From assembly GCF_030068445.1 (NCBI RefSeq), contig NZ_JAQPOK010000068.1, positions 1 through 64,000 of the forward strand: 64,000 bases of DNA, written 5' to 3'. The notes below the pieces were generated by a model, which did no database searches, had not been told where the DNA came from, and was given only the letters and a program-made list of their open reading frames with translations. Positions 2,248 to 29,218 of the stretch are shown piece by piece. The first letter of the stretch is position 1; each line of letters begins with the position of its first letter. Both the position numbers and the translations under genes were made by a program. The stretch is from Roseofilum halophilum BLCC-M91 (GTDB lineage: Bacteria > Cyanobacteriota > Cyanobacteriia > Cyanobacteriales > Desertifilaceae).

Positions 2248-4185
2248 ATGAAATTTAGTCACTCTTCTAGAGGCCCATCTGTGAAACTGCATTGGTTATT
2301 ATCTAGCCTTTTAGGACTCTGGCTTTGGTCAGCTCCAGTCCAAGCAGCCAGTTTACAATATTGGCGGTTTGATGCCAGAAACAATCGTCTGGAATTTGCC
2401 ACCAATGGCCGAGTTCAACCCAGCGCTCAACTGATCTTTAACCCCACCCGCTTAGTAATCGATCTACCGGGAACCAGTTTGGGCAACCAAATTCGCTCCC
2501 AACTGGTCTCTACCCCAGGCATTAAACAAGTCAGAACTGGGCAATTTGAGCGCAACACCACCCGCATCGTCATTGAATTAAACTCTGGCTACACCCTCGA
2601 CCCCTCTCAAGTCAGATTTGTGGGATCTTCTCCTTCCCGATGGACGGTGCAACTGCCCCAACCCCAACGAGAGAGCAGCACCCCAAGGCGCTCTAATCCT
2701 CAGCCCACCTTAACTTCACCTCCCCCTTCTCGGCCGGTGGCTCAACAACCCTCCCCCAACCGCAGCAGCACGGGCAATAAAATTGAAGCCGTTCGCATCA
2801 CTGGGGATGGGTTTTTCATTCGCACCACAACTCCCGCAGAAATTGCCAGGGTTGAGCGCTCTTCAGACCAGCGCCAAATTGAAATCGATCTCGAAGGGGT
2901 GAGTTTACCCGATAACTTAAACCCCAGACGCTTAAACATTAATAGCCGAGGGGTTAATCAACTGATTCTCAGTCCCTTAGAGGGGGATGAAACAGGAACC
3001 CGCATTACCCTCAATGTCAACCCGAATAGTGCAGATTGGCAAGCCTTATCCAGTCGGTTAGGGGTGGTTCTGATTCCCAGAGCAGGCAGTGGAACTGATG
3101 TGGCTAGTGCTAACCCTTGGCCGGCCGGTCGCGAGATTGAAGCCCCCGATCCCAATGTGCCCGATCCGAGTCAACCGCCCCTAATTCAGGCGATCGAGGT
3201 GTCTGGCAATAGCACGAATTCTCAATTGGTGATTCGCGCCAGTGGCCGAATGAATGCGGTGGGCGACTGGCCCAATCCTTCGGTCTATACCTTAAGATTA
3301 TCTCCCGCTCGCTTAGGACAAAATCCGCCCCAGATGCCTACAGGGGGAAATAGTCCCTTTACCCGTTTTGATGTGCAACAAGCTGACGAGCAAACGGTGG
3401 TGATTTCCATGACCCCTCGTTCTGGATTTAGCTTGGGACAGATTAATCAACCGGGTTCTCAGGTGATTTCCCTATCCTTGGGGTCAGGCACAACTGCCCT
3501 CCCCCCCATTGCCACAACTCCTAATCCTCCCTCCGCAAACATTCCCATTCCCGTCCCTAGACCGGCTAATCCTCTCCCTCCTCAGCCGACGACTCCACCC
3601 CGTACCCAATGGCCCCTGCCTTCTCCAGGACGCACGCCCAATTCTCGGATTCGGGTGGTGATCGATCCGGGTCATGGGGGTCGCGATCCCGGTGCAGTCG
3701 GCATTCGTGGATTGCGAGAAACGGATGTGGTTTTAGATATCTCTCGGCAAGTGGCGGCTATTTTGCAACAAAATGGGGTGCAAGTGGTGTTAACCCGCGA
3801 TCGCGAAGTAGAAATTGACCTTGCTCCTAGGGTGAATCTGGCCGAGCGAGTCAACGCCACCCTCTTTGTTAGCATTCATGCCAATGCAATTAGTATGAGT
3901 CGCCCGGATGTCAATGGAGTAGAAACGTACTATTACAACAGTGGCGCTCGTCTAGCCCAGATGATTCAAGGTTCCATCCTCCGGAGCATACCGATGAGAG
4001 ACCGGGGAGTAAAACGCGCTCGCTTTTACGTCCTGCGTAGAACTTCGATGCCCGCCGTATTAGTGGAAACTGGATTTGTGACTGGGGCCCAGGATGCTCC
4101 CAGGTTAATGAATCCGGCCTTTAGAAGTCAGATGGCTCAGGCGATCGCCAATGGAATTTTGCTGTACATCCGGCAATACTACTAG
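2248..4185 (+). CDS. amiC: N-acetylmuramoyl-L-alanine amidase, three AMIN domains (AmiC-like)
   Basis: This enzyme cleaves the amide bond between muramic acid and the stem peptide in peptidoglycan. A signal peptide ends near AAS (residue ~35). Three AMIN-type beta domains follow (about 37-135, 175-275, 310-410), then a Pro-rich linker (about 420-465) and an Amidase_3 domain (about 467-640). The zinc and catalytic residues are visible: H476 in DPGHGG, E491 in LRETD, the His of SIHANAI, and the Glu of LVETGF. The second and third AMIN-like domains are an expansion relative to the downstream paralog. The two genes are a tandem duplication; in filamentous cyanobacteria AmiC enzymes open septal nanopores for cell-cell communication. 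Alternative start: an in-frame GTG 33 bases in, matching the paralog's start. Confidence 0.9.
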   Translation: MKFSHSSRGPSVKLHWLLSSLLGLWLWSAPVQAASLQYWRFDARNNRLEFATNGRVQPSAQLIFNPTRLVIDLPGTSLGNQIRSQLVSTPGIKQVRTGQFERNTTRIVIELNSGYTLDPSQVRFVGSSPSRWTVQLPQPQRESSTPRRSNPQPTLTSPPPSRPVAQQPSPNRSSTGNKIEAVRITGDGFFIRTTTPAEIARVERSSDQRQIEIDLEGVSLPDNLNPRRLNINSRGVNQLILSPLEGDETGTRITLNVNPNSADWQALSSRLGVVLIPRAGSGTDVASANPWPAGREIEAPDPNVPDPSQPPLIQAIEVSGNSTNSQLVIRASGRMNAVGDWPNPSVYTLRLSPARLGQNPPQMPTGGNSPFTRFDVQQADEQTVVISMTPRSGFSLGQINQPGSQVISLSLGSGTTALPPIATTPNPPSANIPIPVPRPANPLPPQPTTPPRTQWPLPSPGRTPNSRIRVVIDPGHGGRDPGAVGIRGLRETDVVLDISRQVAAILQQNGVQVVLTRDREVEIDLAPRVNLAERVNATLFVSIHANAISMSRPDVNGVETYYYNSGARLAQMIQGSILRSIPMRDRGVKRARFYVLRRTSMPAVLVETGFVTGAQDAPRLMNPAFRSQMAQAIANGILLYIRQYY

Positions 4186-4291: not shown

Positions 4292-5830
4292 GTGAAACTT
4301 CATTGGCTCTTACCAGGTGTTTTAGGATTATGGCTGCTCTCATCTCCCGTGTATGCAGCCAGTTTAGAAAATTGGCGCTTTGATGCCAGAAACAATCGTT
4401 TAGAATTTACCACCGATACCAATGTTCAGCCCAGGGCGCAGCTCATTTACGGGCCGACTCGTCTGGTGATTGACTTACCCGGCATTCAGTTAGGCAGAGC
4501 CTTACGAGAGCAGTTGATCAATACTCCTGGCATTGCCACAGTCCGCACCGGCCAGTTCAATTCTAATACCACCCGCTTAGTGGTGGAACTTGCACCGGGC
4601 TATACCCTTGACCCCAATCAAGTCAAATTCCAAGGCATTTCCCCCCGTCGATGGGCGGTTCAAATTCCCAATCCTCAACGGGATGAACGACCCGTTCCTC
4701 CTCCTGTTGCTACGCCTGCCCCCCCTAGCAGTGCTTCATCGGTGGTCGAAGCCATTCGGGTGACCGATGGTGGCTTTTATTTACGGGTAAATGGCGAAAA
4801 GCCTAAAGTCAAGTCGGTTAGACGCACCTCAGATCAAGAGCAAATTACGATCGATTTTGAGGGGGTGACCTTAGCGCCGGATTTACACCAAAGACCGTTA
4901 CCGATTAATAGTCGAGGGGTACGGCAAATCCAGATGAGCCAACGGGAGGATTCTATCGTGCGGGTGACTTTAGATGTAACTCCTGCCAGTCCAGATTGGC
5001 AAGGGTTAACCAATAAGTTTGGAGCAGTGATTATTCCCATTTCCGGCAGTCGTGGTTCCATGGGTCAAGAGGCCCAACAGCCTTGGCCCAGAAATCGGGA
5101 ACTGGCATCGGTGAATTCTTCCCTGGGCCCTGCTCCGACGCAACCTCCATCTGCTCTACCGCCTCAAGATGGAATTGCGATTAATGTGCCGCCACCGGCT
5201 AATCCTTTGCCTCCGACTCCCCCTCGTCCCCAACCTTTACCTCCTCCGACAACCAATCCTCGTCCGTCTACTCCGACTCCTCCTCGTAATTCTCGCATTC
5301 GGGTGGCGATTGACCCCGGCCATGGGGGCAGAGACCCTGGAGCAGTGGGCAATGGACTGCAAGAGAAACATATTGTGATGGATATCTCCAATCAAGTGGC
5401 GGCTATCCTGGAACAGAATGGGGTGCAAACGGTGATGACTCGTCGGGATGACCGGGAAATTGATTTAGCGCCTAGGGTAGCGACGGCCGAACGAGCTAAT
5501 GCGACGTTGTTTGTGAGTATTCATGCGAATGCTATTAGTATGAGCCGTCCGGAAGTGAATGGGCTGGAGACATTTTACTATCAAACGGGTGAACGTTTAG
5601 CTCGCGATATCCAGAATAGTATTCTGCAAACTTTAAATATTCGCGATCGCGGAGTGCGGCGTGCTAGATTTTATGTGCTGAGGAAAACATCCATGCCTTC
5701 TGTCTTGGTGGAAACTGGTTTTATCACGGGTCGGGAAGATTCGGTGAAGTTAGCTAATCCGGTTTTCCGTCGCCAGATGGCTCAAGGAATTGCCAATGGC
5801 ATTCTGCGCCATATTCAGCAAAACTATTAA
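4292..5830 (+). CDS. amiC: N-acetylmuramoyl-L-alanine amidase, two AMIN domains (AmiC-like paralog)
   Basis: A paralog of the preceding gene, sharing near-identical stretches such as the ENWRFDARNNRLEF region after the signal peptide. It has a signal peptide (residues 1-22), two AMIN domains (about 25-120 and 150-250), a Pro-rich linker (about 280-335) and an Amidase_3 domain with H344 in DPGHGG, the Glu of LQEKHIV, SIHANAI and LVETGF. The start is GTG, 12 residues later than the paralog's ATG. Its spacing of 106 bases from the first amidase contains no obvious terminator, so co-transcription with it and possibly with murI is likely. The periplasmic cell-wall hydrolase role follows from the family. 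Confidence 0.9.
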   Translation: MKLHWLLPGVLGLWLLSSPVYAASLENWRFDARNNRLEFTTDTNVQPRAQLIYGPTRLVIDLPGIQLGRALREQLINTPGIATVRTGQFNSNTTRLVVELAPGYTLDPNQVKFQGISPRRWAVQIPNPQRDERPVPPPVATPAPPSSASSVVEAIRVTDGGFYLRVNGEKPKVKSVRRTSDQEQITIDFEGVTLAPDLHQRPLPINSRGVRQIQMSQREDSIVRVTLDVTPASPDWQGLTNKFGAVIIPISGSRGSMGQEAQQPWPRNRELASVNSSLGPAPTQPPSALPPQDGIAINVPPPANPLPPTPPRPQPLPPPTTNPRPSTPTPPRNSRIRVAIDPGHGGRDPGAVGNGLQEKHIVMDISNQVAAILEQNGVQTVMTRRDDREIDLAPRVATAERANATLFVSIHANAISMSRPEVNGLETFYYQTGERLARDIQNSILQTLNIRDRGVRRARFYVLRKTSMPSVLVETGFITGREDSVKLANPVFRRQMAQGIANGILRHIQQNY

Positions 5831-6754: not shown

Positions 6755-8035
6755 CTAGCACCCAGGGCTATAGGGGATGTCTATTTGTGCGATCGCCATC
6801 TGAGCTAATTCTGCTGCCGCTCCACGGTGTCCGCGCACCTGAGCGAGGCGATCGCCCATTTCTTCTAATTGCTCTGGATACTCTAAATACTCAATCACTT
6901 GCTGGGCAACGGCTTCAGCCTCTAAATGTCCCACCCATTCCGGCACGATCATTTCATTTGCCCAAATATTGGGCCAGGCAAAAAATTCCCCTCGCTGCTG
7001 TTTCCAGAATAAAATCGCTTTATTTATCGCTTTAGCCAGACTCGAACCCACGGCTGGTAAATGGGCTAATAGTCCCCAAATGCCATCCCAACTCCGCATC
7101 GCGTCGAGCTGTTGGGTGGGCAATAACACGATCATGGGAATCCCCAAAGACCCCAATTCTGCCGTATTTGCCCCCACAGTGGTGATACACAATTGACATT
7201 GCCTTAGCACGTCATAGGCAGGAAAGGGAGTCCAGAGGTCAATTTCTAAGCTACTGGGGGTTTTGAGGCGCGGTATGGGCCCGGTTTGGATTAACTCCGC
7301 TTCCCCTGTGGGCCAATGGTGCAACGTAGGATTGAATTGGGGATTACCAAATTGGGCTAAGGTTTGGATATCGAGGGTCGGCGCAACGGGAATGATAAAC
7401 TGGGTTTGAGGGCGCTGTTGATGGATTAATTGGGCGATCGCCAACGAAAATGGTAATCCCGGCCGTAGTTTATCCGGTTTTGACCCCGGTAATAGGGCAA
7501 TCAACTCCCCGTTAACTGGATATTCTGATGTTGAGACAGACTCGGCCGAGTCTGCCATTAAATCTCCCACTACGGTGAATTTATGGGATAATGAAGGCTT
7601 AACTTTGTCTAAAACTTGCCGATTCATCACCGCAAATTGGTCAATCCAAGGCTGCCATCTGGCTTCCCATTCTGCATAAACCAAGGTTCGATAGCCCAAC
7701 CGCTTGCCTAAAACCAGGGTAAAAAACTGATCGCCACCCAGAAAAAGTACCAGACCGCGATCGCTCCATGGCCAATTTTGGGCCGTTTTCCCCCACAATA
7801 AAAAAGGGATAAAATCCTCCGGCCCCTGAACCCGGTTCACCTCTGGCCAAGCAGCCGCCATCTGCATTTCCGAACCACTCGCATTCGGACAGGGAGACAA
7901 CACCACCGAGATGCGAACCCTGTTGTTATCGACTCCTAAAGCTTGGCGAATTTCTTTGACCACTGGACGCACCCAAGTGGTTAATTCTCCCGGCCCATTG
8001 GAGAGAATCAGAATATCGATCGTACTTTCAGACAC
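6755..8035 (-). CDS. LpxB-related glycosyltransferase-like protein (TIGR03492 type)
   Basis: Resembles the cyanobacterial family distantly related to lipid-A-disaccharide synthase LpxB. The N-terminal ILILSNGPGELTTWV segment and a C-terminal nucleotide-sugar-binding half (TTVGANTAELGSLGIPMIVLLP) are visible. The true substrate is unknown; cyanobacteria generally make atypical lipid A, so LpxB function should not be assumed. I chose the GTG at 8035 (MSESTIDIL..., 426 residues). The open frame continues 43 codons further upstream, but those codons translate the heptamer repeat (repeated ITHYPLP) and an inverted-repeat element, so they are unlikely to be native protein. Confidence 0.75.
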   Translation of the reverse strand: MSESTIDILILSNGPGELTTWVRPVVKEIRQALGVDNNRVRISVVLSPCPNASGSEMQMAAAWPEVNRVQGPEDFIPFLLWGKTAQNWPWSDRGLVLFLGGDQFFTLVLGKRLGYRTLVYAEWEARWQPWIDQFAVMNRQVLDKVKPSLSHKFTVVGDLMADSAESVSTSEYPVNGELIALLPGSKPDKLRPGLPFSLAIAQLIHQQRPQTQFIIPVAPTLDIQTLAQFGNPQFNPTLHHWPTGEAELIQTGPIPRLKTPSSLEIDLWTPFPAYDVLRQCQLCITTVGANTAELGSLGIPMIVLLPTQQLDAMRSWDGIWGLLAHLPAVGSSLAKAINKAILFWKQQRGEFFAWPNIWANEMIVPEWVGHLEAEAVAQQVIEYLEYPEQLEEMGDRLAQVRGHRGAAAELAQMAIAQIDIPYSPGC

Positions 8036-8040
8036 AGATT

Positions 8041-8117
8041 GGGTAATGGGTAATGGGTAATGGGTAATGGGTAATGGGTAATGGGTAATGGGTAATGGGT
8101 AATGGGTAATGGGTAAT
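8041..8117. repeat. Heptamer tandem repeat (GGGTAAT)x11
   Basis: Eleven exact head-to-tail copies of GGGTAAT, 77 bases. It matches the short tandemly repeated repetitive sequences known from cyanobacteria. It begins 5 bases upstream of the chosen GTG start of the LpxB-related gene and so sits in that gene's leader, where copy-number change could affect translation. Related shorter arrays occur near 52156 and 58458. Confidence 0.95.
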
Positions 8118-8264
8118 ATCAAGTCCGGTGAATGGGAAAAGACAAGCGGGCAAGATGCCCGCACTCCTGGAATACCTTGATATTCTGGAGTGGGAGCGTC
8201 TCGCTCCCTAGACTTTTAATTATGGTGTTTCCGCTTCGCGGACATGAATAACCGGACTTGATAT
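8116..8264. mobile_element. 149-bp MITE-like element with 14-bp perfect terminal inverted repeats
   Basis: ATATCAAGTCCGGT (8116-8129) is exactly inverted at 8251-8264. Inside are three further small hairpins: GCGGGCAAGATGCCCGC, GGGAGCGTCTCGCTCCC and CCGCTTCGCGG. There is no coding capacity of its own. It lies between the heptamer array and the end of the gene at 8295. No clear target-site duplication could be assigned because the left flank is the repeat array. Confidence 0.7.
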
Positions 8265-8294: not shown

Positions 8295-9083
8295 TCAGAC
8301 CCCGAATTGTCCCCAAATTTGTTGGGCAATGCGTTTGGTTAATGTGGGTCGAGAAGTAAACAATTCTCGCAAAGCCCAAGAACTGAGCCGGGGAAGCGTT
8401 GTCATCATCCGCCGAATTAACCAGTCCCGGAACCAAAAGCCCAGAAATGTGCCAATGACTGCGGGTAAAACCACCCAAAGCAATAGGGAGATCAGGACTT
8501 GTTGAAGAGCGCCAGGGTCTTGAAGAACGACGATCAGGTTTCTGATCACCAAGATCGCGTCTGGAATCCAGATCGTCAGCATGGCGATCGCCCAAGCAAT
8601 GCGATCGACCAACTGAGTCGTTCTCAATTGCAAGAAACTCAACAGCTCATTAATCAACCAATTGTGGCTTTGAACCACTCGCAAACACTCCGGTTTGTTC
8701 AGTAACTCTCGACCTACTTGGTTGATAATGTCACCATCCGGAGATAGCACCGTCCGTAATAGAAACTTGCCTTCCTTCGCCTCATTGCCTACATAGAATG
8801 TCTTAAATGTCAAGGCAGATTGAATCGTTCCCCAAGAGGTCGTATCAACAACTACCAGTTGCCTCAGATCCACCAGGAGACGAGCCAACTGGCGGGGGGG
8901 GATAATTAGGCGATCGCCTCCCAACCGCACTCCCTCAATTTGCCTGAGCATCAACGGATTCAGATAAAATACAAATTCGCCCTCTTCCGCTCGAATACAA
9001 GGCGCAATCAAGCTTCCTGGGGTTTCTGGGGGATTTACCAGCGATCGCACCCGCTCTGCCGTATTTCGGATAAACTTAAACAC
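8295..9083 (-). CDS. Uncharacterised two-helix membrane protein with DGDI-H domain
   Basis: 262 residues, family not recognised. The soluble N-terminal part carries FLLRTVLSPDGDIINQVG (108-124) with H140 exactly 24 residues after D116. The same arrangement occurs in the next three genes upstream. Two hydrophobic segments (about 162-186 and 195-218) end the domain and a basic C-terminal tail follows, so it probably anchors the group to a membrane. The start is GTG preceded by a clear GGAG. It is the last gene of the minus-strand block, only 20 bases after the previous gene, so translational coupling or co-transcription is likely. Confidence 0.75.
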   Translation of the reverse strand: MFKFIRNTAERVRSLVNPPETPGSLIAPCIRAEEGEFVFYLNPLMLRQIEGVRLGGDRLIIPPRQLARLLVDLRQLVVVDTTSWGTIQSALTFKTFYVGNEAKEGKFLLRTVLSPDGDIINQVGRELLNKPECLRVVQSHNWLINELLSFLQLRTTQLVDRIAWAIAMLTIWIPDAILVIRNLIVVLQDPGALQQVLISLLLWVVLPAVIGTFLGFWFRDWLIRRMMTTLPRLSSWALRELFTSRPTLTKRIAQQIWGQFGV

Positions 9084-9103
9084 ACTCTCCTTTGGAGTCT
9101 CAT

Positions 9104-9856
9104 CTACCGATTAGGATTAACAAACGTAGCAGCCGGTAATCTAAACCGTCCATCCGTACTTTTTTCCAGAATATTTTGCACAATCTCCACCATAAACTCC
9201 AGCAAACCGCGCCATTGCCGTTCCCCAGAACTCACCCCCTCATTATGAATTTGGATCAACAACTCCTTCTGATCGAAACTCAACAGTTGCTCATGGTAGC
9301 GATTAATAATATCACCATCGAGCTGCATCACCGTTTGGGCATAAATAATATCCGTTGACTCAGAACTGAGATCTTGACTATCCAAAGCCGCTTTCAGTTC
9401 TAGCAGTTTACGCAAACCCCGTAAAAAACGCCCATTCGAGAGCAACTGCTGTAGCTTTTCCTCATCCTTGGGATCGTCTGGATTCGGCAGTCGCTCTTGA
9501 GGATCGAATAAATCATTCGTCGGACTATTAAGTACCTGGCGATACTCCATCAGCATTTTACGACGCAATCCATAATAGCGATGGTAAAGAGCTGGCGGAA
9601 TTTTACGCTCATAAAAATATTGTTCATCCCCTTCATGCTCCGGAATCTCATAAATATAACGATAGGCCTCTTGGGGGACAAATTTGCTCCCCGTAATCTG
9701 AGCCACCACCATCGTATTCACTTCCAAGGCAGTCATATCGGTGAGGACTTCACCCAACCCAATGACAAAATCACTAAACCGACGCTGAAGACTAGAGGTT
9801 TGTGTTGGTTGCCCATCCTGGGTGGGCGTTATCTCAGTTGAATCAGGCATAACCAT
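9104..9856 (-). CDS. Uncharacterised soluble protein with DGDI-H domain
   Basis: 250 residues, not recognised. No signal peptide or membrane segment is visible. Residues 25-100 form one predicted alpha/beta region (FSDFVIGLGEVLTDMTALEV...), followed by a charged linker (about 110-135). A C-terminal region has AQTVMQLDGDIINRYHEQLL (173-192) and H204, which is 24 residues after D180, matching the neighbour at 8295 and, more loosely, the two genes upstream. GGAG stands 6 bases before the chosen ATG; a second ATG two codons later is possible. It lies between the membrane protein (20-base gap) and the acidic repeat protein (70-base gap). Confidence 0.75.
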   Translation of the reverse strand: MVMPDSTEITPTQDGQPTQTSSLQRRFSDFVIGLGEVLTDMTALEVNTMVVAQITGSKFVPQEAYRYIYEIPEHEGDEQYFYERKIPPALYHRYYGLRRKMLMEYRQVLNSPTNDLFDPQERLPNPDDPKDEEKLQQLLSNGRFLRGLRKLLELKAALDSQDLSSESTDIIYAQTVMQLDGDIINRYHEQLLSFDQKELLIQIHNEGVSSGERQWRGLLEFMVEIVQNILEKSTDGRFRLPAATFVNPNR

Positions 9857-9926
9857 TTCACTCCTATTGAAAAAAGTATAGATCGACTAGGCTAGAGAAT
9901 CTCTGAGCCGACAGAGAACTCTAATT

Positions 9927-12900
9927 CTAAGATTTTTTGTCCTCAAAAGGATCTTCTAAATCAGCAAAAGGATCTTCATCCAAATCATCAAAGAGTTCTG
10001 AATCTTCTTGGGTTGATTGCTCGAATGAGTCTAGAGACTCGCCAAAAGGATCGGCCTCTTCTTCATCAGCAAACAAATCTGCTAAGGGGTCAACCTCATC
10101 CTCCTCTTCTAACATCAGTTCTTCTGTCGTGGCCGCAGGGGCGATCGCCTCCTCCTCTGTCTCCCAATCCTCAGACAACAGATCGTCTAGTCCATCTGAG
10201 CGATCCAAAACTGAATCTCGATCTGACTCCCCAGAGGAATCTAACCCCTCTTGGGCAAATTCGTCAATCATTTCTTCTGACTCTGGCTCCACCACCGTCG
10301 GTGCAGTATGACTCACAGGTGACTCCTCCCACAGATCCCCCATATCTGCCTCAATTTCCTTCACCGCTTCCGCATCTCTGCGCGATCGAGCTTGAGCCGG
10401 ATCTTCAGCCTCTATAGTTCCCTCATCAACGGACGGAAAATCTAACTCCTCCGTATCCCCAAAAACATCTAACAGATCCTCCTCTTCTTCCACACCCCGA
10501 TCCTCAGTCACACCCCCAGAAAAATCCGGAGCTTCCAAAGGCGTTTGCACTTCCTCTTCTGCAAATACATCGAGTAACTCTTCTGTTTCCCCAGAAAATT
10601 CCTCGGAAGAGGTTGGATCGTTCCAGATCGTCTCTGACATCGTATCCGTTTCAAACTCGCTTAAAATTTCTGCTTCTTGTTCCTCTGATACTTGTGGAAT
10701 ATCCAATGACTCTTGCTCGGAACTCCCAAACGGATCTCCTTCCGCTTCTTCTATTTTTTCCCATAACAATTCTTGGGATTCATCCGTGAGCAGATCTCCC
10801 GATTCTTCACCCGCAAACGGATCTTCTTCCGTCACCACTAATTCCTCTTCTACCGATTCTTCAAATACGGGCGTTTCTACTGATTCTTCCTCTTCCCATA
10901 ACCCTTCCATTTCTGAAGTCTCTTCACTAGCAAACGGATCGTCTTCCGTCACCACCAATTCCTCTTCTACCGATTCTTCAAACACCGGCGTTTCTACTGA
11001 TTCTTCCTCTTCCCATAACCCTTCCATTTCCGAAGTCTCTTCACTAGCAAACGGATCGTCTTCCGTCACCACCAATTCCTCTTCTACCGATTCTTCAAAC
11101 ACCGGCGTTTCTACTGATTCTTCCTCTTCCCATAATCCTTCCGTTTCTGAAGTCTCTTCACTAGCAAACGGATCTGCTTCTGCCGATTCTTCCAATTCTT
11201 GCATTTCTGAAGTCTCTTCACCAACAAACGGATCTTCTTCCGTCACCACCAATTCCTCTTCTACCGATTCTTCAAACACCGGCGTTTCTACTAATTCTTC
11301 CTCTTCCCATAATCCCTCCGTTTCTGAAGTCTCTTCACTAGCAAACGGATCTGCTTCTACCAATTCTTCCAATTCTTCCATTTCTGAAGTTTCGTCACTA
11401 GCAAACGGATCGTCTTCCGTCACCACCAATTCCTCTTCTACCGATTCTTCAAACACCGGCGTTTCTACTGATTCTTCCTCTTCCCATAATCCCTCCGTTT
11501 CTGAAGTTTCGTCACTAGCAAATGGATCTTCTTCTACCAATTCTTCCAAGTCTTGCATTTCTGAAGTTTCTTCGCCCGCAAATGGATCTTCTTCCGTTAC
11601 TACCAATTCTTCGTCTAGAGATTCTTCAAATACGGGCGTTTCTGAAGTCTCTTCACCCGCAAACGGATCTGCTTCTGCCGATGCTTCCAATTCTTGCATT
11701 TCTGAAGTTTCTTCGCCCGCAAACGGATCTTCTTCTGCCGATGCTTCCAATTCTTGCATTTCTGAAGTTTCTTCGCCCGCAAACGGATCTGCTTCTGCTG
11801 ATTCTTCCAATTCTTCCATTTTTGAAGTTTCTTCACTAGCAAACGGATCTTCTTCCGTCACCACTAATTCTTCGTCTAGAGATTCTTCCAATTCTTGCAT
11901 TTCTGAAGTTTCTTCACCTGCAAACGGATCTTCTTCCGTTACCACCAATTCTTCGTCTAAAGATTCTTCAAATACGGGCGTTTCTACTGATTCTTCCTCT
12001 TCCCATAACCCCTCCGTTTCTGAAGCTTGTTCTAAGGATTCTTGAGAAGAGAGATCGCCAGAAGATTCTGTGTCTGTTTCTTGGTGTGTTGTTCCATATT
12101 GAGCATCAAACTCTGCCATAATATCATCTTCGTCTGAATCTTCGTCGGACGACTCTAGATCGGGCAAGTTTTCTTCTGGCTGTTGAGAAGTTTCAGCAGA
12201 GGACTCTTGGATATCGGTGGGTAAGGAATCTATTGGGGAATCAGGGGTTCCTTCTTCTGTATCGAAACTTTCTAATAAATCTTGATCGCTCGAGTCAGTT
12301 ATTTCAGACAAAGATGAATCAGCACTTTCGGTTTCTAGTTGGACTGCATCGATGACGGGTAAGGTTCCTAATTCTGAAGGGGTTAGGTCGGGTTCTACAC
12401 TTAATTCTTCCGAGCCAACTTCGGAATCATCAGCATCAAATGCAGCCATAATTTCATCGTCTTCTGGGTCTAAGCTAGAATCGACACTGGGTAATGATGA
12501 ATCGATTTCAGTTTCTAGGGTTGAAGATTCTAGGTCTGTGTCTAGTTCGGGGATTTCTGGAGAGTCTTCAATGGGGATTAAGGGGGGTTCTTCGATCGCA
12601 CCTTCGGCGATCGCTTCTGAACTTTCCTCTAGATCGGATTGAGCCGCATCTGAGTAAGTCGCATCAAAGGCGCTCATGATCTCTTCTTCTTCATCATCTA
12701 GAGGTTCTTCAGATTCGATCTCTAGATCGTTAGTGTCTTCTGAGGGATCGTCTGGTTGTTCTTCCGGTTCAGATGCTTGTGCTGCTGAGGTAACCGCAAC
12801 GGCGGCGGCGGTAAATCCGGCTGCTGCCGCAATGGTTTCTAGGCTGAGATCGGTTTGTTTTTGGCTCTCTGATGAAGATTCGGGTTCATTTTCCCCAAAA

Positions 12901-13526
12901 ATGTCATCGAGGGGATCTGAGGGGGTTTCGGGTTGAGTTTCAACCGGTTGAGTATCAAAAGAGTCGAAAAAGTCCTCTTCGGGGTCTTCTGAGGGGGGTA
13001 GGGAAGGTTCTGGGGGGCGATCGCCCATTTCCTCACCCCTATCTTCCACTGGAGGCACTTCTACCTCCCAATCCACGGTTTCTGAGTTTTCCTCCGAAGA
13101 AGGAGCGCTCTCATTATTTTGACCCGCAACTGTTTCCAGATGAGTCACCACCGTCTCAAACTCAGTTTGTTGCATCTCTGCCCATAATCCAAACAGTTTT
13201 TGAATACTGTTAAGATTGCGTTTAATGATTTGCCGACTCGATCGAATCTGATTAATGTGGAACTCTCGCAGTTCAGTAAAAGGCCCATTCCCCACAAAGT
13301 GACTACCCACTTCGGTATCGATTTCGCCATCAACGATATTAATCCGGCTATGCATCCGATAACCCGGTTGGGATTCTGGTTGCTCATCTGGGTTGACGCT
13401 ATAGGGATCGGCTAAGGAGATCCAGGTCGTGATTTCCAGTTCTATTGATTCACTTAAGGCGGTTTTCAAAGCATCGAGGAGTTCTCCTGCTTTGATTGCT
13501 TCCCGAAAGTCGTCAGTGGCTGCCAT
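9927..13526 (-). CDS. Giant acidic repeat protein with N-terminal DGEI-H domain and DPF-motif tail
   Basis: 1,199 residues. Residues 1-135 form a folded domain also found in the neighbour at 13648 (FREAIKAGELLDALKTALSE, then RINIVDGEIDTEVGSHFVGNG, H90). The other ~1,060 residues are extremely acidic, poor in basic residues and probably disordered. The first part of the tail has three EIMxxFDAxY-like motifs (IMSAFDATY, IMAAFDADD, IMAEFDAQY). The middle has a ~39-residue tandem repeat (ETSEMEGLWEEEE / SVETPVFEESVEEELVV / TEDDPFASE). About 18 DPF tripeptides occur in all, and the C-terminus ends in DPFADLEDPFEDKKS. A Pro/Ala-rich hydrophobic patch (AAAAGFTAAAVAVTSAA) lies near residues 230-250. 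Function unknown; a multivalent scaffold is an inference. The long opposite-strand frame across it is a shadow. Confidence 0.85.
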   Translation of the reverse strand: MAATDDFREAIKAGELLDALKTALSESIELEITTWISLADPYSVNPDEQPESQPGYRMHSRINIVDGEIDTEVGSHFVGNGPFTELREFHINQIRSSRQIIKRNLNSIQKLFGLWAEMQQTEFETVVTHLETVAGQNNESAPSSEENSETVDWEVEVPPVEDRGEEMGDRPPEPSLPPSEDPEEDFFDSFDTQPVETQPETPSDPLDDIFGENEPESSSESQKQTDLSLETIAAAAGFTAAAVAVTSAAQASEPEEQPDDPSEDTNDLEIESEEPLDDEEEEIMSAFDATYSDAAQSDLEESSEAIAEGAIEEPPLIPIEDSPEIPELDTDLESSTLETEIDSSLPSVDSSLDPEDDEIMAAFDADDSEVGSEELSVEPDLTPSELGTLPVIDAVQLETESADSSLSEITDSSDQDLLESFDTEEGTPDSPIDSLPTDIQESSAETSQQPEENLPDLESSDEDSDEDDIMAEFDAQYGTTHQETDTESSGDLSSQESLEQASETEGLWEEEESVETPVFEESLDEELVVTEEDPFAGEETSEMQELEESLDEELVVTEEDPFASEETSKMEELEESAEADPFAGEETSEMQELEASAEEDPFAGEETSEMQELEASAEADPFAGEETSETPVFEESLDEELVVTEEDPFAGEETSEMQDLEELVEEDPFASDETSETEGLWEEEESVETPVFEESVEEELVVTEDDPFASDETSEMEELEELVEADPFASEETSETEGLWEEEELVETPVFEESVEEELVVTEEDPFVGEETSEMQELEESAEADPFASEETSETEGLWEEEESVETPVFEESVEEELVVTEDDPFASEETSEMEGLWEEEESVETPVFEESVEEELVVTEDDPFASEETSEMEGLWEEEESVETPVFEESVEEELVVTEEDPFAGEESGDLLTDESQELLWEKIEEAEGDPFGSSEQESLDIPQVSEEQEAEILSEFETDTMSETIWNDPTSSEEFSGETEELLDVFAEEEVQTPLEAPDFSGGVTEDRGVEEEEDLLDVFGDTEELDFPSVDEGTIEAEDPAQARSRRDAEAVKEIEADMGDLWEESPVSHTAPTVVEPESEEMIDEFAQEGLDSSGESDRDSVLDRSDGLDDLLSEDWETEEEAIAPAATTEELMLEEEDEVDPLADLFADEEEADPFGESLDSFEQSTQEDSELFDDLDEDPFADLEDPFEDKKS
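10790..12045 (-). repeat. Degenerate tandem repeats inside the acidic protein gene
   Basis: About 1.25 kb of in-frame repeats. Long units of ~117 bases (three near-identical copies between about 10795 and 11150) alternate with short units of ~57 bases around 11640-11840. Some adjacent units differ at only one or two bases, which indicates recent duplication or gene conversion and makes this stretch prone to length change and assembly error. Confidence 0.85.
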
Positions 13527-13647
13527 GATGATAGTTCCTCGTTAATCGATGCCGGAAGCCGATACTCGACCCCATATGAGCAAACCTAAACACCTGTCTA
13601 TGCTATCTGAAATTTGCACAAGTTTGATACTGTTTTCACAAACCCAT

Positions 13648-14091
13648 CTATTTACCCTTGAGTAGGTTGGAGGGTTTAGAGCTAGAGAGTTGAGCCGCTT
13701 GTACTGAAGAGATTTTCTTCATGCTTGCGGCCAAGATAGCAAAGAGTTGCTCTAGGTTATCTAAGTTCTGTTCCAGGATATCGCGGCTTTCGTCAATTTG
13801 ACTCAGATGAAAGTCTTTTAGCTCAGTGTAAGGGCCATTCCCCACAAAATGACTCCCTACTTCGGTATCAATTTTGCCTTCTATGATGTTGATCCGAGTT
13901 CGCATCTGATAACCTGATGTCGCCTGAGTTGCACTGTCGGTTGGATGAGAGTTCGCAGGACGTTCATAGCGAACGCCGTCGGCAACCCAGGTTTTAATAT
14001 CAAGTTCGACGGCTTCGCTCAAAGCAATTTGTAGAGCATCTTTAATATTCCCAGCTTTGAGCGCGGCTTTGAAGTCATCACTAGCTGCCAT
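13648..14091 (-). CDS. Stand-alone paralog of the acidic protein's N-terminal domain
   Basis: 147 residues. It aligns along almost its full length with residues 1-135 of the 1,199-residue protein downstream: MAASDDFKAALKAGNIKDAL against MAATDDFREAIKAGELLDAL, and RINIIEGKIDTEVGSHFVGN against RINIVDGEIDTEVGSHFVGN. H95 is 24 residues after E71. It lacks the acidic tail and ends with a short Ser/Lys-rich tail (SSSKPSNLLKGK). A GAGGGGG stretch precedes the ATG. It lies 121 bases upstream of the long gene on the same strand, a tandem duplication in which one copy acquired or lost the tail. Function unknown; it may bind or cap its larger paralog (inference). Confidence 0.8.
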   Translation of the reverse strand: MAASDDFKAALKAGNIKDALQIALSEAVELDIKTWVADGVRYERPANSHPTDSATQATSGYQMRTRINIIEGKIDTEVGSHFVGNGPYTELKDFHLSQIDESRDILEQNLDNLEQLFAILAASMKKISSVQAAQLSSSKPSNLLKGK

Positions 14092-14185: not shown

Positions 14186-15943
14186 TCAACTCAATTCGGA
14201 TGAGTTTTCCTGCTTCTGCTTTTTCCATAAAATGGCGATCGCCACCCGCACCGACTTCCCCATCATGGACACCCGCATTTCTGGAGAAGCCTTTTTCTCC
14301 CACTGAAGCAAGCTATTACGAAAAGCCTCATCCTGTTGCGATCGCTGCACTATAGCTGACACAATCACCTTTTTCTGGAGCTGCTCTAGGGCAATCCCTT
14401 CCTCTTTCAAATAATTTAACAACCGTTCAATATTAGCCACAAACTGCTCCGGTAGTTGGGAAAACAGAATCGACTTAATCTGCTTCGAGGTCTCCTGATA
14501 CAACTGCTGTTGGCGATCGAGCATCGGTTTCGGAGGCGGAGGGGGTGGGGGACTCTGATTTACCACAGGTCGAGATTCAGGTAAAGTTGGATGTTTCAAA
14601 AGGCTCAATAATTGCTGGCGACACAGCGTAAACCGTTCCTTAACTTCCGGATACAAATTCAAAATCTGTTCAGAAAGTATTTTGGCATTCACCACATGAT
14701 TCGCTAATAACCTCAGCAAATATTGATGATCCATCGGCACATAAGATTCAATCGTTAAATGCAGCTCTAAATTTTCCTGTTGCAATTCCGCCAAAGTCAG
14801 AATCAACACTTCCCAATTGGGCGGCTCGCTAAACAAAACCTCAATCGTTGTACTACTTTCTTGATACTCTTGCCCCAGTTCTCCTGGCTCAAAATCTCGA
14901 TTCACTGGATAGCGGCTGGTGGGACGTTTCGTCGTAAAATTATATTGTCTCCACAAATATCGACAGATGACCTTAGATAAATCAACACCCTCAATTTTCC
15001 AATTTTGGATACACGCACCCGTTAAATTACAACCATCTAAAATTGTCCGAATCAGTCGAGTTTCCAATAACAGAGCATCCGTCAGATCCGTTTCCCCCAA
15101 ATTGGCATCACTCAAATAAGATCCACTTAAATCGGCCCGTCTGAGATTCGACCCCCGTAAATTGGCATGACTTAAATTTCCTTGCAACAGATAAACATCT
15201 TCTAAATTCGTTCGCAACAAATGAGAATTCTTAAAGCTCGTTTTCAGCAAATACGCTCCAGCCAAATCAGCCCGACTCAAATCGGCATAATCTAGCATTG
15301 CATCGCTTAAATCAGCCCCCGTAAGAATCACTCGATGTAAATCCGCTCGACTTAAATCAGCCGATCGCAGACAACAGTTGAGTAAATTCGCCTCCGTTAA
15401 ATTCACCTCAACCAAAATTGCATTGCGTAAATTGGCCTCCTCTAAATGGCTCTCCCGTAAATTCGCCCCTGTTAAATTGGCTCCCGTCAAATTTGCATGA
15501 CGCAGATTTGCTTCCATTAACTCCGTTTTGCTTAAATTCACACTCGTTAGCTTTGCCCGTTCTAAATTAATTTGATCTAACGTTGAATTTTGCAAATCAG
15601 CACTGGTTAAATCTGCTTCTGTCAGGATCGCCCAATTGAGTTCTGCTTCCTGGATTCGGGATAAGCGTAAATCCGCCTTAGTTAAATTCGCCCCACTGAA
15701 ATTACAACCCTTTAATTGACTACTGGTTAAAACCACATTACTTAAATCCGCATGTCGCAAACAGGCTCCTGTAAGATTGGCTTCATTGAGCGATACCCAA
15801 GTTAAATTGGCTCCAGTTAAATCTGCCCCAGTCAAATCAATTTGCCGTAAACTTGCCCCACTGAGGTGAGCGCCACTGAGGTCTACATGGGCAAAATCCC
15901 GTTCTCCTTGTCGATAGCGATTGAATAACTCTTGTGTTTCCAT
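14186..15943 (-). CDS. Pentapeptide-repeat protein with C-terminal helical domain
   Basis: 585 residues. Residues ~15-310 are A(D/N)LxxA-type pentapeptide repeats, which fold as a right-handed quadrilateral beta-helix rod. A middle domain (about 350-460, EVLFSEPPNWEVLILTLAEL...) follows, then a Pro run linker (SPPPPPPPKP, ~475-485) and a helical C-terminal domain (490-585). The last two are not recognised. The gene is 94 bases upstream of the DGEI-H block on the same strand and may be its first gene. Pentapeptide proteins are common in cyanobacteria and mostly uncharacterised, so linkage to the block is inference from position. Confidence 0.8.
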   Translation of the reverse strand: METQELFNRYRQGERDFAHVDLSGAHLSGASLRQIDLTGADLTGANLTWVSLNEANLTGACLRHADLSNVVLTSSQLKGCNFSGANLTKADLRLSRIQEAELNWAILTEADLTSADLQNSTLDQINLERAKLTSVNLSKTELMEANLRHANLTGANLTGANLRESHLEEANLRNAILVEVNLTEANLLNCCLRSADLSRADLHRVILTGADLSDAMLDYADLSRADLAGAYLLKTSFKNSHLLRTNLEDVYLLQGNLSHANLRGSNLRRADLSGSYLSDANLGETDLTDALLLETRLIRTILDGCNLTGACIQNWKIEGVDLSKVICRYLWRQYNFTTKRPTSRYPVNRDFEPGELGQEYQESSTTIEVLFSEPPNWEVLILTLAELQQENLELHLTIESYVPMDHQYLLRLLANHVVNAKILSEQILNLYPEVKERFTLCRQQLLSLLKHPTLPESRPVVNQSPPPPPPPKPMLDRQQQLYQETSKQIKSILFSQLPEQFVANIERLLNYLKEEGIALEQLQKKVIVSAIVQRSQQDEAFRNSLLQWEKKASPEMRVSMMGKSVRVAIAILWKKQKQENSSELS

Positions 15944-27973: not shown

Positions 27974-28012
27974 TGACATACTCCCACACTAAGCTGACGC
28001 TATAGTGTGGGC
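27974..28012 (-). mobile_element. IS200/IS605 right end and guide-RNA 3' region (copy 2, intact locus)
   Basis: Read on the minus strand: CCCACACTATAGCGTCAGCT then TAGTGTGGGAGTATGTCA. The CCCACACTA/TAGTGTGGG stem overlaps the TnpB stop codon. The terminal GGGAGTATGTCA equals that of copy 1. The predicted guide would be the bases just beyond it, CGTATACAAAAGAGCGCTGT. Confidence 0.65.
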
Positions 28013-29218
28013 TTCTCGCTTCACAGCCCCGCCATTGCGTCGGGCTCCACGAGCTTTAAGGACGGAATGCCCTGCCGCCCTATTTTTTATGTTTATTGCG
28101 GCATTCAAGTCACGGTCTATGACGATACCGCAATGTGAGCAAGAATGAGTTCTGATAGATAATTCTTTAGGGACTTTTTCACCACAATTCGAGCAGTCTT
28201 GGCTAGTATTTTTGGGGTTCACAGCTATAGTTTTTTGCCCAGCATTCTCAGCTTTGACAGTTAAAATAGTTAAGAATTGTCCCCATCCAGCATCATTAAT
28301 CGACTTGCTCAATTTAGTTTTCGCCAGCCCTTTAATATTTAAGTTTTCGTGGGCCACAACATCCGCTTTGGATAATAATTCATTAGCTGTTTTGAAATGA
28401 AAATCTTTGCGCTTGTCGGCAACTTTTTTATGTTGCTTTGCCACAGATTTCACAGATTTTAAGCATCTTTTGCTGCCTTTTTTCTTACGGGATAAACGTT
28501 TTTGTAGAGTCTTTAACCGCTTCTGAGACTTTCGATAATATTGAGGAATTGGAACCGATTCTCCATCACTCGTTACCAAGAAGTCTTTCAGCCCCATGTC
28601 GATACCTAGGGTATTTTCTAGGATTGGTTCAACATCACAAGTTAAGACTGGAACTGATTTATCCTCCAACGACAAGGTTACATAATAGCCATCTGCTTTA
28701 CGGCTAATAGTGACGGTTTTAATTTGAAAACCTTCTGGCAACGGTCGATGTTTAATTAACTTTACTTTACCTATTTTGGGTAAAGTAATTTTATTTCCTT
28801 CTATGCAATCTTGCTTGATTTGAGGATAAGTAAAACTATGATAACGACCTTTTCCCTTGAACCTTGGCTTCCCTAATTTCTGCCCATTTTTATCCGTTTT
28901 CAACCATCTATCGAAGCCAAGCTTTACCCGTTTAATACAATCTTGCAATACTTGAGAATGAACTAACTTGTACTCAGGAAATTTATCTTTGGTATTTACC
29001 AAATCCTTTTTTTGAGAATAATAGTCTGGATTATCTCTAAGTTGAGGAATTGGTATTATTAACGGGCAAGCATTTACCGGACAGCAGTTTTCTTCCCACC
29101 ATGAGAACCGCTCACCCAAGCGATAGTTGTACTGCCGACGCAATAAATCCAGCCACAATTCTATTACTGCGACTTGTTCTTTATTGGGTCTAAGCTTGTA
29201 CTGGTAAGCGGTTCGCAT
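27989..29218 (-). CDS. tnpB: RNA-guided endonuclease TnpB (IS200/IS605 family)
   Basis: 409 residues, full length for the family. It has an N-terminal helical domain ([15 protein letters not shown]), a basic middle region, a split RuvC nuclease with D207 (GIDMGLKDF), E291 ([11 protein letters not shown]) and the final [10 protein letters not shown] (D368/D370), and a zinc ribbon C342, C345, C360, C363. All catalytic residues are intact. No tnpA transposase is beside it, so it is an IS1341-like tnpB-only element, mobile only in trans. TnpB uses an RNA from the right end to cleave DNA and favour element retention. It sits between clpS and small conserved genes. Confidence 0.92.

Follow-up and report, generated by a model that had tools for sequence, protein, structure and literature searches.

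Four adjacent genes of Roseofilum halophilum share an apparently undescribed module on different bodies: a candidate membrane-tethered assembly in part of the Cyanobacteria

Why should one short motif recur in four consecutive genes whose products otherwise differ so widely, and what might such a set build? The question is raised by a locus of Roseofilum halophilum BLCC-M91, within a window of 64,000 nucleotides (the whole stretch of DNA analysed here, positions 1 to 64,000 of contig NZ_JAQPOK010000068.1). The genes, here called A, B, C and D, lie consecutively on the minus strand with intergenic gaps of 121, 70 and 20 bases. An earlier note, made from the sequence letters, had recognized the pattern [DE]G[DEK]I[DI]x19H in all four and had proposed a self-associating module, duplicated in place and used to assemble a membrane-tethered scaffold.

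Gene A (13648..14091; from the open reading frame, ORF, and a structure model) encodes the bare module in 147 amino acids. Gene B (9927..13526; ORF) begins with a module of 135 residues (13122..13526), 48% identical to A in the alignment used and 45–53% depending on the alignment, followed by an acidic low-complexity tail of 1,064 amino acids delimited by composition (9930..13121). Gene C (9104..9856) encodes 250 amino acids, with the module split by an insert and without a hydrophobic segment, and gene D (8295..9083) encodes 262 amino acids, a module followed by a membrane hairpin. A pattern scan located the motif in A as EGKIDTEVGSHFVGNGPYTELKDFH (13807..13881), in B as DGEIDTEVGSHFVGNGPFTELREFH (13257..13331), in C as DGDIINRYHEQLLSFDQKELLIQIH (9245..9319) and in D as DGDIINQVGRELLNKPECLRVVQSH (8664..8738), all on the minus strand. 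The motif starts at residues 71, 66, 180 and 116, respectively, with the histidine 24 residues on in each, as had been reported; translated in all six frames (127,996 residues), the window contains four matches, all within A–D.

One module in four adjacent genes

Family alignments comprised 46 rows for the modules of A and B together (AB), 24 for C and 21 for D; a pyruvate kinase-like ORF (L085_954), a match of another query, was left out of the D alignment, and the partial L098 out of later profiles. Profile–profile comparison using hhalign gave probabilities of 46% for AB–C, 49% for AB–D and 87% for C–D, compared with maxima of 5.0%, 0.7% and 0.9% in 100 column-shuffled controls per pair. 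An earlier, smaller test had given 22, 32 and 86%, where reversed profiles did not exceed 2.0% and 30 shuffles each did not exceed 0.8%. In HMMER searches with the database size fixed at 5,000 and a threshold of E ≤ 0.05, the AB profile matched 13 of the 23 C proteins (best 2.9e-7), the D profile matched 5/23 C proteins and the C profile 3/21 D proteins, with C/D cross matches in genomes outside the profiles reaching 6.6e-5 (L167) and 9.1e-5 (L165). At the whole-genome level, the C profile matched the D gene of genome G187 (5.5e-4) and the D profile the C gene of G166 (7.9e-4). Among the 794 ORFs scanned, 88 of which belong to the family, none of the three profiles brought a non-family ORF to the threshold, and decoys made by reversing the sequences gave zero matches. 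Collectively, these comparisons, well above their shuffled controls, support one homologous module in the four genes and its duplication in place. The acidic-tailed modules require five changes on the free tree and a single clade is not rejected (p-AU 0.537), which is compatible with a single ancient origin of these B copies.

For gene C, the relationship extends beyond the earlier description. The AB profile matches the C protein of the window (E 0.0012) at residues 37–54 and 174–230, and in four C proteins inspected it likewise matches in collinear pieces flanking roughly 90–135 residues, namely the first helix and strand (profile positions 3–40 in L092) and, on the far side, the stretch running from strand 2 into the His helix. 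Taken alone, the first piece is weak, and the D protein of L099 shows the second part only. The two collinear pieces argue that C is most likely a whole module carrying an insert, placed by these pieces and the C model at approximately residues 55–170 (9347..9694, minus strand), between strands 1 and 2.

The glycine of the motif is kept in 42/46 AB, 24/24 C and 20/21 D rows and the histidine in 46/46, 24/24 and 19/21, the two remaining D rows having glutamine, while the residue before the glycine is D or E in 36/46, 22/24 and 16/21. From that acidic position to the histidine, the distance is 24 in 39/46 AB rows (16–29 in the other seven), in 18/24 C rows (26 in the other six) and in 8/21 D rows, with 25 in 13/21. 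The exact 24-residue spacing, which the note saw in all four proteins, is a local feature that slips by one or two residues in C and D and by more in a few AB rows, whereas the glycine and histidine nearly always stay; the slippage counts against the note's proposal on a strict reading only. A further shared position, absent from the note, is a threonine in strand 1, found in 46/46 AB and 24/24 C rows and replaced in part by serine in D (Thr 11, Ser 8 of 21 rows). The helix around and after the histidine is amphipathic, with shuffle p values of 0.004 (AB), 0.010 (C) and 0.038 (D).

A weak model of A, built from 17 alignment rows (mean pLDDT 64.7, pTM 0.40), predicts helices at residues 2–12 and 16–27, strands at 29–36, 61–68 and 73–78 and a long helix at 89–136, placing the [DE]G where strand 2 turns into strand 3 and the histidine early in the long helix. 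The beta-like strands said to precede the motif are therefore predicted for A at this confidence; the C model (8 alignment rows, mean pLDDT 60.0), in which the insert is mostly helical and the expected strands are missing at low confidence, is too poor at the motif to judge.

Searches of family, structure and fold libraries returned no credible match, in agreement with the note, which had recognized no described family. In Pfam-A (2025), A–D of the window all fall below the cut-off, the nearest matches of B lying in its repeats (CofB_C, 24.8 bits against a cut-off of 27), and relatives from loci L005–L012 reach E 0.013 at best. NCBIfam gave no credible match for the window proteins. Its scan of relatives, covering the AB and C rather than the D members, returned matches each confined to 1/46 AB members at E 0.006 or more and a leucyl aminopeptidase match in 1/24 C members (E 0.0012), none of which we believe; the same applies to PADLOC matches (JetC in 2/46 AB members and three other models in 1/46) and to PHROGs matches (E 0.029 and 0.092). 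Profile searches against the PDB gave best E values of 0.6, 0.23 and 0.28, and Foldseek with the weak A model gave 1.4, while the best VIA-align rows with that model align chiefly along the long helix (Z no higher than 5.4). As modelled, A has no outstanding fold match, from which a new fold does not follow. A narrow literature search found nothing on an A–B–C–D operon. Judged by sequence comparison, the module family is real and apparently undescribed.

Attached bodies, operon layout and distribution

The bodies are as the note had stated them: two hydrophobic segments in D, a giant acidic tail in B and no segment in A or C, whose best 19-residue hydropathy (0.91 and 1.03) stays below the cut-off of 1.6. 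The segments of D lie at residues 162–180 (8544..8600) and 196–214 (8442..8498), supporting the proposed membrane tether, and are followed by a basic C-terminal tail of 48 amino acids with net charge +6 (8298..8441), all on the minus strand. The remaining 20 D proteins have between one and four predicted segments each, and all 21 D tails carry a net positive charge. In the B protein of the window, a single Ala-rich stretch at residue 227 is borderline hydrophobic (1.66).

The tail of B carries a net charge of −387 over its 1,064 amino acids (38% D+E, 1% K+R, no Cys) and, from this composition, is presumably disordered. All 21 B tails examined are net negative (−11 to −568; 17–42% D+E) and extend from 31 to 1,796 residues past the cut, L095 being interrupted by a contig end; the sign of the charge is thus kept while length varies more than fifty-fold. 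Across these tails, DPF occurs 39 times versus 4.2 in shuffles (10/21 tails) and [DE]W..[LMIWF] 34 times versus 9.2 (12/21 tails). Tandem repeats account for some of this excess, for instance those at 10804..11985 (minus strand), which form several overlapping arrays coding EETSEM..EEDPFA units in the B tail of the window. Short tails from other families, such as those of L094, L097, L087, L093 and L103, carry acidic-Trp motifs too, and the B tails of family f8 (L087, L093, L103, L173–L175) include DDWNEWIE and EEWQEWLE. Antisense to the B repeats of the window, a plus-strand open frame of 419 amino acids (10786–12045) is probably an artefact of repeat composition.

The AB, C and D profiles were searched in a sample of 244 genomes of the phylum. 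AB was found in 31/244 and C and D in 25/244 each; the C and D sets are the same 25 genomes, wholly inside the 31 with AB, a co-occurrence in keeping with the note's proposal. Relatives carrying the family, distant ones among them, include Roseofilum acuticapitatum, an Aphanothece metagenome-assembled genome (MAG), Trichocoleus, the filamentous ESFC-1, a Leptolyngbyaceae MAG and Prochloron didemni. One additional C-profile match, a 26th row from G219 (E 0.005), was considered spurious because that genome has no AB or D match. Single-sequence searches of 146 genomes returned 21 for A, 18 for C and 14 for D, one A and one C genome being false. The false A genome is G127, where the query matched SppA (signal peptide peptidase; L102, E 0.003), as it did in its own genome (L104, E 0.0185), both false on reading the sequences; the C match in G098 (E 0.003) was judged spurious, with no A or D match, and an own-genome match on C137 (E 0.25) was dropped.

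The four genes form a conserved operon, with the layout A–B–C–D in the window and at other loci. Variants comprise A–C–D without the long acidic tail (L083–L086, L090, L099, L165, L170, L172), a tail-bearing module followed by C and D (L088, L092, L100, L171) and A–B only, in six genomes of family f8 (L087, L093, L103, L173–L175). D is retained in G105 though unlinked from A and C, and in G117 it lies on another contig, a different gene following C. Among the 27 loci with a visible operon start, 13 have maf upstream in the same orientation (12 directly; in L089 a small opposite ORF lies between maf and the operon) and psbP precedes the maf–operon arrangement in 11, while the other 14, Roseofilum included, have different neighbours. 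The shared maf/psbP position favours an ancestral site and subsequent losses over a recent transfer. In L012, the distance of −1 from maf to the first AB gene was disregarded, since ORF starts were assigned mechanically there and the real start probably lies more internally. A promoter and terminator scan found no excess over shuffles.

Directly upstream of A, on the same strand and 94 bases away, lies a gene for a pentapeptide-repeat protein of 585 amino acids (14186–15943); such a gene followed by the operon also occurs in L005 and L006, and beside the operon in no other compared locus. Elsewhere in the window, the heptamer TGGGTAA is repeated 11 times perfectly (8040–8117) inside the 5′ end of ORF 6755–8164, coding an LPITHYP repeat, an oddity which suggests that the true start of that ORF is probably further in. 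The adjacent plus-strand genes 2248–4185 and 4292–5830 are similar by eye, each with an N-terminal AMIN-like and a C-terminal N-acetylmuramoyl-L-alanine amidase-like part, and are probably a tandem duplication; a TnpB/OrfB-like transposon-associated protein was also recognized by eye at 27989–29218 (minus strand).

A putative assembly and its alternatives

What the set might build can be answered tentatively. It is plausible, though we would not press it, that the products of the four genes are paralogous subunits which together form a single cytoplasmic protein assembly tethered to a membrane, and with similar reserve we regard this assembly as a possible self-associating scaffold, given the tandem paralogues, the amphipathic helix, the membrane hairpin that ends in a basic tail and, in B, an acidic tail which recalls, in plan only, PopZ, the Caulobacter polar organiser. 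Module homology, operon, joint retention, hydrophobic segments and charges are the observed basis. Tandem paralogues that are retained together with differing attachments often act as partners. Each subunit would contribute a module consisting of two helices at the N-terminus, a sheet of three strands with [DE]–G in its last turn and the long His helix; the modules might pair mutually, making A, B, C and D specialised partners. The two-helix hairpin of D would anchor the assembly in the membrane, with its basic tail presumably facing the cytoplasm, and the acidic tail of B could serve as a multivalent recruiting or spacing arm tuning the density and stickiness of the assembly, in the way that PopZ's acidic linker does.

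Several findings weigh against the proposed assembly. Heptad periodicity of the His helix is marginal (p 0.020 for AB, 0.041 for C and 0.113 for D), so this helix may merely pack on its own sheet. The AB profile matches just 2/21 D proteins (0.0015 and 0.037) and gives a non-significant E of 5.9 with the D protein of the window, so that the AB–D link rests on profile–profile comparison, and the structure models of A and C are both weak (mean pLDDT 64.7 and 60). Moreover, the A–C–D sets indicate that the acidic tail is dispensable, the six f8 genomes without C and D that the anchor is dispensable there, and in the PMM_0019 MAG (locus L011) C is present with no recognisable D beside it. Since there are lineages without D or without the B tail, neither is indispensable, and the core function probably resides in the module itself.

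Other functions would draw on the same observations. The module could be an enzyme or ligand-binding domain, in which the histidine and the strand-1 Thr/Ser make up a functional site, and the operon would encode a short metabolic or signalling pathway; the retention of both positions (in D, 19/21 rows keep one of the two residues Thr and Ser) speaks for this, but a buried structural His–Thr contact would give the same pattern, the acidic residue is less constant in all three families, two D rows replace the histidine with glutamine and no credible enzyme family or fold match emerged, so we consider it unlikely. A role in photosystem or thylakoid assembly, in which the acidic tail would act as a holdase-like or cation-binding arm, is somewhat less likely again: it would account for maf and psbP upstream of the operon, but not for the 14/27 loci with other neighbours, Roseofilum among them, nor for the 213/244 genomes of the phylum in which AB was not found, many of which are presumably photosynthetic. 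The probability falls slightly further for a role in multicellular life (filament, septum or motility). HetR (PF03574) occurs in 19/25 genomes with C and D versus 38/219 others (Fisher p 4e-9, kinship ignored), but it is present in 0/6 A–B-only genomes and in 38 genomes without AB, and the genes are carried by Prochloron (L012) and the Aphanothece MAG (L007), both of which we take to be unicellular. Gas vesicle protein is similarly found in 12/25 versus 25/219 (p 3e-5, kinship ignored); both distributions overlap the set and neither explains it.

Patchy presence (31/244 genomes) and a weak PADLOC match of the B module to PtuB (E 4.7e-4) would suit a defence or selfish system, which is nevertheless highly improbable, given that PtuB (Septu) matches just 1/46 AB members, that no plasmid record matches C and no phage record matches A (E 1e-3; those two genes only), and that the position beside maf is common to several families. 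That the DG hairpins are alike by chance or convergence, instead of by homology, has the least to commend it and would surprise us greatly: identity in the aligned AB–C and AB–D stretches is only 11–21% and the AB–D match in the window is not significant alone, but the collinear two-piece AB match in C proteins, with empty controls, and the matches between the C and D families in G187 and G166 argue for common descent. Whatever the mechanism, one domain has been duplicated in place with four bodies and co-retained across families.

Comparison with known systems

The proposed membrane-tethered assembly can be set beside known bacterial organisers. McdB is described in PMC10554743 as a phase-separating, oligomerising carboxysome-positioning protein studied in a cyanobacterial context. 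The assembly would resemble it as an oligomerising, phase-separating protein, a likeness drawn from description. We know of no membrane partner or paralogue set for McdB. MamJ, according to PMC5059902, is an acidic protein of bacteria, believed to link a membrane organelle, the magnetosome, to the MamK filament; the B tail recalls it, again by description, in its acidic tandem repeats and variable length. A title cited in the same source calls the acidic repeats of MamJ hypervariable, a trait that the B tail shares in its length, and, as a point of difference, states that chain assembly does not need them.

PopZ offers the comparison of plan. As described in PMC9512792, PopZ has a C-terminal helical oligomerisation domain adjoined by a 29%-proline linker with a net charge per residue of −0.28, and this charged disordered arm beside the oligomerising domain sets condensate properties. 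B likewise has a strongly acidic low-complexity region adjoining a folded domain, its tail reaching −0.36 (387/1,064) versus −0.28 for the PopZ linker; unlike PopZ, the module here is N-terminal, modelled as alpha/beta and part of a paralogue operon. Kinship to PopZ was not detected in Pfam and NCBIfam scans, in which the presence of a PopZ model was not checked, and the likeness is one of plan rather than kinship. It is a more doubtful, though possible, extension that part of the Cyanobacteria possesses a paralogue-only, membrane-attached organising centre, PopZ-like in working and of separate origin; such a centre would, just as speculatively, consist of an undescribed cytoplasmic domain, duplicated and reshaped in place, used bare (A), with a giant acidic arm (B), with a helical insert (C) and with a membrane hairpin (D). 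If true, it would represent a subcellular scaffold new to cyanobacteria, an overlooked, modular and membrane-linked assembly accessible to genetics in part of a well-studied phylum.

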